Positions 8,700-45,172 of a stretch of DNA of 64,000 nucleotides are shown here, one piece after another. Source of the stretch: Cellvibrionaceae bacterium 1162T.S.0a.05 (GTDB lineage: Bacteria; Pseudomonadota; Gammaproteobacteria; Pseudomonadales; Cellvibrionaceae); NCBI GenBank assembly GCA_000964245.1, contig LANB01000001.1, positions 1,095,501 to 1,159,500 on the forward strand. The letters run 5' to 3'. Made by a program: the position numbers and the translations under genes. Each line of letters starts with the position of its first letter. Position 1 is the stretch's first letter. The notes beneath the pieces were generated by a model. That model saw only the letters and a program-made list of their open reading frames with translations, did no database searches and was not told the DNA's origin.

Positions 8700-9557
8700 C
8701 TACTCCTCTTCTGGCTGGCTTTCGTCAAAGACCAGTAACACATGGCGACTGCGATCCAGCTCGGCCATTGGGCGCGCCCACACTTGCATAAATTCGCGGC
8801 CACTGTGCTGTTCCACTTCCGTGACCACCGCGACCGGATATCCCTCTGGAAAACGCCCTCCAAGACCGGAACTCACCAGTAAATCGCCCTCCTGAATATC
8901 CGTGGTGTTCGACACATAACGCAAACTCAAGCGAAACTCGTTAGGGTTGCCGACACCCTCCGCAACCAGGCGCACGCCGTTGCGATCAATTTGTACCGGT
9001 AACGCATGGGTGGAATCCGTGATGAGTAAAACCCGGCTACTGCGCTCGCCGACTTCTACAACTTGCCCCATCAAACCATTCGCATCCAGCAGCGCCTGCC
9101 CGACATAAACCCCGTGCTTGCTGCCACGGTTGATGATCACTTTCTGTGTGGTGATATCCGGGGAAATACCAATCAATTCCGCCACTAACACACGGTCTTC
9201 AATCGTCTCCCGAGAGTTCAGCAACTGCCGCAAGCGCACATTTTCTGCCGCCAGCGACACCATTTCCTGGAGCTTGCGTTTGTGTAACAACAATTCGGTC
9301 CGTAACGCTTCATTCTCCTGCTCAAGACGGCCGCGCGACATGGTTTTGGTATCGACAATTTCAATCGCACGGTCCGGCAAGTCTGCCGCCCAATGAAAGG
9401 GAATGGCCAGGTCAGTGGTTTTGTTTTTGAGGGAGGAGAACCAGTCGGTATAAAGATAAATACCGGCAATGATGAGCGCGGCCAGTATCAACAGCGCTGT
9501 GCGTGCGCCGAGAGACGGACCTTTGTTAAAGATCGGTTTGATGCTCTTTTCCCCCAC
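8700..9557 (-). CDS. mreC: Rod shape-determining protein MreC
   Basis: 285 residues. A single N-terminal membrane helix (about residues 19-38, RTALLILAALIIAGIYLYT) is followed by a coiled coil (about 65-110, rich in LEQEN and LLHKRKLQE patterns) and the periplasmic beta-barrel pair typical of MreC (GLMGQVVEVGERSSRVLLIT; GDLLVSSGLGGRFPEGYPV). It links the MreB filament to the periplasmic cell-wall synthesis machinery. The start is GTG at 9557; no ATG is available upstream of the membrane helix. An unusually long 439-base gap containing a palindromic repeat separates it from mreB, so it may have its own promoter. Confidence 0.95.
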   Translation of the reverse strand: MGEKSIKPIFNKGPSLGARTALLILAALIIAGIYLYTDWFSSLKNKTTDLAIPFHWAADLPDRAIEIVDTKTMSRGRLEQENEALRTELLLHKRKLQEMVSLAAENVRLRQLLNSRETIEDRVLVAELIGISPDITTQKVIINRGSKHGVYVGQALLDANGLMGQVVEVGERSSRVLLITDSTHALPVQIDRNGVRLVAEGVGNPNEFRLSLRYVSNTTDIQEGDLLVSSGLGGRFPEGYPVAVVTEVEQHSGREFMQVWARPMAELDRSRHVLLVFDESQPEEE

Positions 9558-9709
9558 TAGAAAAGATGGTGTTGCTGTAAACCGGGGAGTATAGCCTGAA
9601 GTGGGGCTTAGACTAAATTGTCTATTACCACTTTAGCTTTGTCGCGAGGGTATTGGACTAAAACCTCGGCAGCATTGGCTGTCACGGAAGCATCGGCTTA
9701 TGGTCGCGA

Positions 9710-9823
9710 GGGCATCGATCACAAGGTGGCCCTTGGTGAAAACGCATGAATACGTCCCTGTAGCTCCGTTGCTTCTTCCCTGAAGCAACGGTTTCACCAA
9801 GGGCCACCTTGCACTCGATGCCC
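9710..9823. repeat. Intergenic palindromic element, copy 1
   Basis: Outer stem 9710-9718 with 9815-9823 (9 bp). A 3x3 mismatch follows (TCA 9719-9721 against CAC 9812-9814). The main stem is 9722-9741 with 9792-9811 (20 bp, perfect). A one-sided 24-nt bulge at 9742-9765 contains CATGAATAC and TCCCTGTAG. The inner hairpin is 9766-9775 with 9782-9791 (10 bp) and has loop TTCCCT. The same architecture recurs at 44303-44431 with ten compensated stem differences. Copy 1 lies between mreB and mreC, so mre transcripts would read its reverse complement. Confidence 0.93.
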
Positions 9824-9951
9824 GGCAAGCTTCCTCGTAATTGAAAGCTGGAATTTCAAACTGCCATAACCTACGCGGGAAATATTTAACTTAAACACTG
9901 CGCGCTTCAGGCTTTGCAATCGAAGTCGAATAGATATAGCGAAATAACATT

Positions 9952-9971
9952 CGAGGCTCAAAAGAGCCTCG
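9952..9971 (-). terminator. Hairpin downstream of mreB, possible attenuator
   Basis: Perfect 8-bp stem CGAGGCTC/GAGCCTCG with a four-base loop, 26 bases after the mreB stop on the minus strand. The sequence after the hairpin (AATGTTATTTCG on the minus strand) is only weakly U-rich. It may be a weak intrinsic terminator, or an mRNA 3'-end stabiliser that makes mreB mRNA more abundant than mreCD mRNA. Confidence 0.45.
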
Positions 9972-9996
9972 GAGGGTGGAATAAATAGAGAAACAG

Positions 9997-11124
<1,128 letters not shown>

Positions 11125-43329: not shown

Positions 43330-44271
43330 TTGGCAGACTTAATGGTCTTTAGCGGTAACGCTAACCCGGAATTGGCAGAGAAAGTCGTCGACAAACTGGG
43401 GATTCCTCTCGGAGATGCGACCGTCGGTAAATTTTCAGACGGTGAAATTTTTGTAGAGTTGAACGAAAACGTACGCGGTCGCGATGTGTTTTTGATTCAA
43501 CCCACATGCGCACCGACCAACGACAATATTATGGAGTTGGTGGTGATGGTGGACGCACTGCACCGTGCTTCCGCCGGGCGAATCACTGCGGTGATACCCT
43601 ATTTTGGTTACGCCCGCCAGGATCGTCGTGTACGTTCTGCGCGCGTTCCTATCAGTGCAAAAGTCGTCGCGGACATGATGGTCAGCGTCGGCATCGACAG
43701 AATTTTAACCGTGGATTTGCACAGTGAGCAGATTCAGGGCTTCTTCGATGTGCCGGTAGACAATGTCTACGGCTCGCCCGTTTTGCTGGCGGACATTGAA
43801 GAACAGGAATTTGAAGATCTGGTGGTGGTATCACCGGATATTGGCGGTGTGGTTCGCGCCCGTGCAGTGGCCAAGCAGCTGGATATTGATCTGGCCATTA
43901 TTGATAAGCGCCGCCCGAAAGCGAATGTTGCCGAGGTGATGCACCTGATCGGTGAGATTGATGGCCGCACCTGTTTGCTGGTCGACGATATGGTCGATAC
44001 TGCGGGCACTTTGTGCAACGCTGCCAAGGCTTTGAAAGAACACGGCGCCAAGAAAGTGATCGCGTATGCGACGCATCCGGTTTTATCCGGTAATGCCGTG
44101 GAAAAATTAATGAATTCGACCCTGGATGAATTGGTGGTAACTGATTCCATTCCTTTGTCGGACGATGCAAAGAATTGCAAAGTGATTCGTCAATTGACTT
44201 TATCCAATATGTTGGCTGAAGCGATGCGACGAATTAGCAATGAGGAATCTTTAAGCGCGATGTTTCGCTAA
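43330..44271 (+). CDS. prs: Ribose-phosphate pyrophosphokinase
   Basis: 313 residues from TTG 43330, preceded by GAAGGG eight bases ahead; the next ATG (43342) would clip the conserved N-terminus. The N-terminal [11 protein letters not shown], the catalytic flexible loop [16 protein letters not shown], the [11 protein letters not shown] motif and the PRPP-binding [13 protein letters not shown] are all present. It makes PRPP from ribose-5-phosphate and ATP. A terminator overlaps its stop codon. Confidence 0.97.
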
Positions 44272-44302: not shown

Positions 44303-44431
44303 GAACGCCGATCACAAGGTGCCTCTTTGCGAAAACACATGAATACATCCCTGTAGTTCCGTCACCGGTTCGCCGGCCGCTTCATCCCTGAAGTGACGGT
44401 TTCGCAAAGAGGCACCTTGCACTCGGCGTTC
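44303..44431. repeat. Intergenic palindromic element, copy 2
   Basis: The outer stem is 44303-44311 with 44423-44431 (9 bp). The mismatch TCA/CAC is at 44312-44314 and 44420-44422. The main stem is 44315-44334 with 44400-44419 (20 bp perfect). The bulge 44335-44358 is 24 nt, with CATGAATAC and TCCCTGTAG as in copy 1. The inner stem ends in CTTC-ATCCCT-GAAG and carries an extra small hairpin CCGG-TTCG-CCGG at 44365-44376. It lies between prs and rplY. Confidence 0.93.
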
Positions 44432-44530: not shown

Positions 44531-45172
44531 ATGTCTAAAGAAGACTTTCAATTAGATGCCCAACCTCGTGATGATCAAGGGAAAGGTGCGAGCCGCCGCC
44601 TGCGTCGCGAAGCCGGTTTGGTGCCGGGCATTGTTTACGGTGGAACCAAAAAGCCACAAAACATTAGCATCAAACACAACGAACTCGTTAAGCATTTGGA
44701 AAACGAAGCGTTTTACTCTCACATCATTAAATTGAATGTGGGTGAGAAAAGCGAAGATGTGATTTTGAAGGATTTGCAACGTCATCCTGCAAAAGCGCAA
44801 ATCGTTCACGCGGATTTTCTGCGAGTTTCCAAAACCAAAAAACTGCAAACCTCCGTACCTCTGCACTTCATCAATGAAGCCAGCAGCAAAGGCGTCAAGT
44901 TACAGGGTGGCCAGGTAGCTCACAGCATGACTCAGTTGGAAATCAGCTGTTTACCAGGTGATTTGCCCGAGTACATCGAAGTAGACCTGGCTGACGTTGA
45001 AGTCGGTCAGATCGTTCACATTTCCGACCTCAAATTGCCGAAAGGTGTTGAATCTGTTGCTCTAAGTCACGGTGAAGACCATGACTTACCTGTTGCGGCG
45101 ATTAATAAGCCTAAAGGTTCTGCCGAGTCTGAAGACGAAGGCGGCGAAACGGAAGAAGGCGGCGAAGAATAA
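44531..45172 (+). CDS. rplY: Large ribosomal subunit protein bL25 (Ctc/TL5 long form)
   Basis: 213 residues, the long form. The N-terminal 5S rRNA-binding domain (about 5-95, [20 protein letters not shown]) is followed by the TL5 C-terminal beta domain (about 100-190, with [20 protein letters not shown]) and an acidic tail ([15 protein letters not shown]). It is a ribosomal protein of the 50S central protuberance. It is followed by a strong terminator at 45191, and preceded by palindromic element copy 2 and a Shine-Dalgarno (GGAG) near 44519. Confidence 0.95.

Follow-up and report, generated by a model that had tools for sequence, protein, structure and literature searches.

A dispersed REP-like intergenic repeat family whose opposite strand may encode a three-way-junction RNA with two CsrA-type sites

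Introduction

The small RNAs RsmY and CsrB of the Csr/Rsm network carry several A(N)GGAX stem-loops per RNA. PMC4005645 describes the high-affinity RsmE site as an ANGGAX hexaloop that caps a C-G-closed stem without intervening bases; N and X are looped out, and N may be lacking. PMC7652899 gives a SELEX consensus, RUACARGGAUGU, and a range of 10-63 nt over which CsrA bridges two sites, with an optimum above 18. A different kind of system that also comes close is the GTAG REP super-family with its BIMEs, presented in PMC3733652 as dispersed intergenic palindromes of 20-40 bp with an unpaired GTAG tag beside the hairpin, head-to-head dimers and complementary stem variation. Finally, PMC8794818 proposes template switching as a source of changes in RNA stems, these changes being multi-base and compensated.

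Here we describe a family of palindromic elements that touches on all three. The starting point was a 64,000-nt stretch (the window) of the genome of Cellvibrionaceae bacterium 1162T.S.0a.05, the source genome below. In the accessible parts of the open-licence PubMed Central literature we found no named family and no CsrA-repeat link for these elements, and the accessible portions of PMC9788540 and PMC12889724 do not describe the family.

Results

Two copies in the window

Two copies are present in the window, at 9710-9823 and 44303-44431, as a first-pass annotation made from the sequence had claimed. Its count of compensated change also stands: over 39 paired positions the copies show 10 differences, each leaving a Watson-Crick pair in either copy. 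The core pattern, with at most 3 mismatches, matches twice in the window against a shuffle mean of 0.01, and folding z-scores run from -8.2 to -11.6 over both strands of both copies, with 0/200 shuffles folding equally well. Copy 1 is flanked by minus-strand ORFs at 9997-11124 and 8700-9557, which we take to be mreB and mreC, and its minus strand is sense to both. Copy 2 is flanked by plus-strand ORFs at 43330-44271 and 44531-45172, presumably prs and rplY, and its minus strand is antisense to both. The parts of each copy, labelled by the structure argued for below, are as follows.

9710-9741, minus strand: P1 arm of copy 1, 3' arm of the predicted minus-strand RNA
9751-9762, minus strand: P2 mini-hairpin of copy 1, UAC-AGGGAC-GUA in the predicted minus-strand RNA, a CsrA-type hexaloop
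9766-9791, minus strand: P3 hairpin of copy 1, loop C[AGGGAA]G in the predicted minus-strand RNA
9792-9823, minus strand: P1 arm of copy 1, 5' arm of the predicted minus-strand RNA
44303-44334, minus strand: P1 arm of copy 2
44344-44355, minus strand: P2 mini-hairpin of copy 2, UAC-AGGGAU-GUA in the predicted minus-strand RNA
44359-44399, minus strand: P3 hairpin of copy 2, loop C[AGGGAU]G in the predicted minus-strand RNA, with a 15-nt insert at 44366-44380 in one strand
44400-44431, minus strand: P1 arm of copy 2

The annotation was right that copy 2 has extra sequence in P3, the 15-nt insert adjoining the CCGG-TTCG-CCGG mini-hairpin that it had taken for the insertion. Several source-genome copies of 138-139 nt equal copy 2 in extra length and are possibly a sub-family, the insert itself having been read in copy 2 only. 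The 3x3 mismatch in P1, described as fixed, is identical in both window copies but is not fixed in the family: the left side reads TCAC in 18/41 copies, and several copies are fully paired. Read on the opposite strand it becomes two G-U pairs and one A-G. By eye, the TCGCG just beyond P1 (window 9702-9709) is repeated at many source-genome copies, with a loose TCATGA-like motif on the far side.

Family size and distribution

The source genome is a single contig of 4.40 Mb in which BLASTN gave 55 matches. From 54 places, 12 were dropped from alignment A1 and one more from A2, and the 41 copies of A2 were used to build covariance model R1. This model found at least 134 matches on both strands of the source genome, a lower bound as 150 of 1150 first-look candidates were scored. 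Matches in the fetched source-genome loci numbered 180, of which 150 were aligned and 95 kept after overlap removal (A3), extending the two-copy family of the annotation to a genome-wide one of at least 95 non-overlapping, mostly intergenic copies. Among 58 genomes near the source genome 31 carry the family by R1, and a broader model of the opposite strand, R2, has matches in 37 of 185 genomes of the class, the source genome being included in both counts. The exact core pattern recovered 77 stretches in named genomes, including Microbulbifer, Marinimicrobium, Marinagarivorans, Cellvibrio, Pseudoteredinibacter and Halomonas. A named set of 94 copies was retained from 118 matches after dropping 7 from Pseudoteredinibacter, 12 partial or weak and 5 antisense duplicates; its P2 types are biased because the loci were fetched by the exact core pattern. 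One P. isoporae copy is common to two copy sets.

Viral contigs of IMG/VR gave 0 matches to the exact core pattern, and the idea of viral carriage was dropped. At the elements no Rfam family rose above its gathering threshold, in the window or at 7 related loci; the two tRNAs of the window lie elsewhere, and below threshold 9650-9880 attracted miRNA-precursor models only. Two distant gammaproteobacteria (G128 and G096, loci L274-L282) hold numerous copies that score identically and are nearly the same in sequence. Those of G128 also share their flanks, and together with those of G096 they appear to reflect recent amplification within a larger repeat.

A third helix in the palindrome

Over the 41 aligned copies, the 39-pair structure shows 97.3% standard pairs, with 353 pair cells changed on both sides and, in the motif-strand count, 3 changed on one side while keeping a standard pair. 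The covariation score is 0.605, compared with 0.164 for shuffles and at most 0.101 for slid versions, and many of the double changes are transversions. What had been described as a one-sided, conserved 24-nt bulge is really a third helix, the covarying 3-bp hairpin P2. Across three sets the P2 loop could be placed in 230 of the 241 copies, and all 3 stem pairs are formed in 218 of these 230. The stem is mostly TAC/GTA flanking NTCCNT, and it also occurs as CCC/GGG, CAC/GTG, TAT/ATA, GTC/GAC, GAC/GTC, TGC/GCA and AAG/CTT. Among the 55 copies that are not TAC/GTA, 43 are fully paired, against a mean of 14.1 and a maximum of 22 in 2000 shuffles (the 100% P2 pairing of a further alignment, A4, is no evidence, as copies had to have P2 and P3 to enter it). 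Beyond a 5-nt bulge P2 continues in a lower stem, GC(N)/(N')GC, which covaries as well, at 40/48 against 26.7 expected and a maximum of 34. As the P2 stem pairs and covaries, the GTAG beside the inner hairpin is the 3' side of P2. Judged from sequence, the best reading is that the opposite-strand RNA would fold as a three-way junction of P1 (about 20-32 positions), P3 (about 10 bp) and P2 (3 bp plus the lower stem). P2 does not appear in the minimum-energy fold of the minus strand of either window copy.

Some copies carry further palindromic sequence. An extra flanking inverted repeat scoring at least 10 was seen in 12/50 source-genome copies (G000: 331514, 748493, 754762, 1295014, 1818436, 1818761, 2781627, 3286451, 3286767, 3300451, 4060840 and 4240796) and in 109/2450 mismatched flank pairs. 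Several of these repeats are perfect over 26-38 nt, mostly with a short unpaired stretch before P1, and look like inverted flank duplications. Two comparisons of close relatives (L135:1242-1321 with L136, and L128:3207-3270 with L173) show an additional, partly palindromic stretch of about 60-80 nt within a hairpin loop of the element, by nested insertion or deletion. At G000:C1:1818761-1818990 same-orientation variant copies with the altered tag CTGTTCGTTT adjoin an element.

Loop sequence and wobble pairs differ between the strands

On the opposite strand, which is minus for both window copies, the P2 and P3 loops read C[ANGGAX]G. A sequence-blind search found P3 in 118/147 copies. Its 52 hexaloops have A in 50, G in 52, G in 51 and A in 51, with C-G closing in 50, and there are also 42 four-nt loops, many or most of them GGGA or TGGA. 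The same kind of search found P2 in 102/118, with A in 97, G in 100, G in 95 and A in 99; its N and X vary, and a C-G pair closes 92 of the loops. P3 is closed by G-C in 8/84 aligned copies, mostly from genome 005FR1. Among the copies there are hexaloops as well as pentaloops lacking N. Two stem-loop A(N)GGAX sites are present on the opposite strand in 64/95 copies of the source genome and in 36/52 and 81/94 copies of the other two sets, numbers to be read knowing that covariance-model finding disfavours copies without loops. On the motif strand two such sites occur in 0 copies, and one in 2/241. Under the strict rule, 30/95 source-genome copies have one site and 1/95 none, and one site is left in 16/52 and 13/94 of the other sets.

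The wobble pairs of P1 are similarly uneven. G-U pairs on the opposite versus the motif strand number 132:20 in the source genome, 106:9 in the named loci and 41:6 in the Pseudoteredinibacter set. In the source genome, the only set in which the mismatch block was separated out, the mismatch columns contribute 77 versus 2 and thereby much of the asymmetry, and the wobbles outside this block and its two neighbouring columns stand at 35:17 (p = 0.018, wobble p-values being optimistic because related copies share ancestry). An initial reading of the elements as DNA only, suggested by a motif strand nearly without G-T pairs, was overturned by the opposite-strand count.

Likeness to CsrA/RsmE sites

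In sequence the elements resemble a CsrA/RsmE ligand, with ANGGAX on a C-G stem, A, G, G and A fixed and N and X free. The consensus P2, CUACAGGGAUGUA, agrees with the SELEX consensus at 11 of 12 positions. Among the 64 two-site copies of the source genome, 54 have their GGA motifs 19 nt apart and 59 have them 19-21 nt apart, distances within the CsrA bridging range; 31/95 copies are without two sites. Distant copies keep these features: among 21 copies from 20 stretches, picked among high-scoring matches, 21/21 retain ANGGAX in P2 and 20/21 follow the two-site rule. CsrA itself (PF02599) has 2 matches in the source genome and is present in 56/58 genomes, as well as in 33/36 other element-bearing genomes of the class and 27/27 of the near-complete ones, a weak test given that CsrA is so common here.

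Loops are kept and arms rewritten at orthologous sites

Orthologous sites were compared in four genomes, Pseudoteredinibacter and near kin, which yielded 10 groups, 9 of them usable after exclusion of one tandem-array locus. With the reference copy of each group required to carry the P2 loop, the fixed loop positions A, G, G and A vary at 1/68 and N/X at 9/34 (p = 1.7e-4, nine site groups); a stricter variant with 6 groups gave 1/48 against 7/24. Other core positions vary at 11/127, which is not significantly different from the fixed loop positions (p = 0.06). Variability elsewhere was 8/54 in the P2 stem, 4/98 in the P3 stem, 165/540 in the P1 arms and 276/720 in the flanks. The wobble asymmetry, combined with conservation at orthologous sites of the loop positions that CsrA would contact, indicates selection and points to a strand-specific single-stranded molecule as its object, of which RNA would be the simplest form. 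Single-stranded DNA of the opposite strand would be expected to give the same asymmetry.

The P1 arms behave differently. In 7/8 groups the left arms of more distant members share 58-80% identity at a given site, and each pairs with its own partner at 92-100%, with matched indels, where cutting the arms by best local match favours high pairing. This agrees with the earlier suggestion of selection on structure or arm-to-arm copying, or both. Single uncorrected mismatches linger in several groups which, together with the arm change at the same site, argues for rewriting in place that is not instantaneous. Template switching, proposed for RNA stems in PMC8794818, probably supplied the mutations, to which selection at the RNA level would be added; the sharing of arms among copies by conversion was assessed by eye only. 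At one locus (L176:1932-2375) a gap contains three tandem copies; in L167 the gap contains only one, and its arms differ.

Genomic arrangement

In co-directional gaps the strand bearing the sites is sense for 12 single copies and antisense for 9, where genes were predicted with a simple ORF score. Orientation relative to the genes is unbiased, in line with what the annotation had noted from two copies, and this speaks against any simple action in cis. Gaps of all three kinds (co-directional, convergent and divergent) contain elements, in either orientation, and 0/92 copies with called neighbours lie wholly inside a predicted ORF, some overlapping ORF ends. Close neighbours are convergent (head-to-head) in 31/34 cases in the source genome and 25/31 in the named loci, an arrangement that would give one site-bearing RNA in either reading direction. 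An autonomous element between convergent copies was rejected: 14 spacers are unrelated, sharing only 14-16-nt matches, and two wider gaps hold ordinary-looking ORFs. PF01797 (Y1_Tnp) has no match in the source genome, and it is found in 22/31 element-positive and 21/27 element-negative genomes, leaving 9/31 element-bearing genomes, the source genome included, without it. Mobilisation by a RAYT, the REP transposase suspected earlier, is unsupported by these data, there being no association in the 58 genomes.

Discussion

Our preferred reading, to which we assign a probability of about 0.58, is that the elements are a dispersed REP-like intergenic family whose selected product would be the opposite-strand RNA, folded as a three-way junction with two CsrA-type sites. 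One CsrA/RsmA dimer is predicted to bind both loops of a single element. Transcribed copies may then titrate CsrA, or place CsrA on host transcripts, by analogy with the hairpins of RsmZ and CsrB. The complementarity of P1 would be upheld during rewriting by intrastrand template switching (quasipalindrome correction) along with selection on RNA pairing.

Several other explanations deserve weighing. That these are REP/BIME-type non-autonomous mobile elements seems unlikely to us. The opposite strand would then act as a single-stranded DNA hairpin recognised by an HUH (TnpA-REP-like) or other transposase, with the loops and the GTAG-like tag as recognition features. It draws on the dispersal, on the GTAG beside the hairpin and the head-to-head pairs, which recall the GTAG REPs of PMC3733652, on the prevalence of convergent close neighbours, and on the strand asymmetry that single-stranded DNA also gives. 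However, the source genome is without PF01797 and the domain shows no association with the family, the core pattern is absent from IMG/VR viral contigs (0 exact matches), the GTAG tag forms the 3' half of the P2 stem, covarying with its 5' half, and at shared orthologous sites the loops have been conserved. This last point, with the bias of G-U wobbles to the opposite strand, also tells against the main inference of the first-pass annotation, which had favoured a DNA or mobile element over a cis-regulator.

Neither of the two remaining ideas accounts for the loops. A long hairpin acting as a transcription terminator, mRNA-end stabiliser or attenuator would leave the ANGGAX loops unexplained; elements moreover occur in all three gap types and both orientations, and a simple scan of 9558-9996 gave one terminator-like site, at 9952-9971, away from copy 1. 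Even granting very stable stems and the 0/92 copies wholly within a predicted ORF, we consider this role improbable. Slighter still is the chance that the palindromes have no function and are perfected and diversified only by template switching (quasipalindrome correction) or inter-copy conversion. Such a process predicts neither the wobble-strand asymmetry nor the position-specific loop conservation, and barring an unrecognised ascertainment bias both are seen; single mismatches also linger at several orthologous sites. It does fit the blocks of both arms that differ at orthologous sites with matched indels and the many double changes that are transversions, and it is the mechanism proposed for RNA stems in PMC8794818.

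A broader and more tentative idea suggests itself from the sequences: class-wide mobile or mobilised repeats may seed gammaproteobacterial genomes with two-site CsrA/RsmA docking RNAs, providing a distributed, evolvable sponge and a layer of regulon rewiring. A convergent pair would then yield one site-bearing RNA whichever way its gap is read, and partner loops read antisense (AUCCCU) could mask AGGGAU sites by kissing. If true, REP-like 'junk' repeats in many gammaproteobacteria would be a hidden layer of the Csr/Rsm network. This would also give REP-like repeats a concrete RNA function and change the assumption about free CsrA in models. The orthologous copies also form a natural record of two-arm stem rewriting with the loops, which resemble protein sites, kept fixed; this bears on the origin of compensated changes in RNA stems.

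Set beside the described systems, the family combines features of each. With the template-switch-maintained RNA hairpins of PMC8794818 it shares multi-base, compensated stem changes; the difference is that here they occur at orthologous sites in a bacterial element that is dispersed and whose conserved loops resemble protein sites. With the GTAG REPs and BIMEs of PMC3733652 it shares dispersed intergenic palindromes, GTAG beside the hairpin, head-to-head dimers and complementary stem variation; the elements here, however, are predicted three-way junctions of about 110-140 nt rather than 20-40 bp, their GTAG is paired within P2 and covaries instead of being an unpaired tag, their wobbles are strand-specific, and no RAYT association was seen. 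The Csr/Rsm small RNAs RsmZ, RsmY and CsrB have the same A(N)GGAX loops on C-G-closed stems, several per RNA and at one-dimer spacing. Instead of a single sRNA gene dedicated to many sites, the source genome has about 100 two-site copies, dispersed and set in long, variable palindromes.
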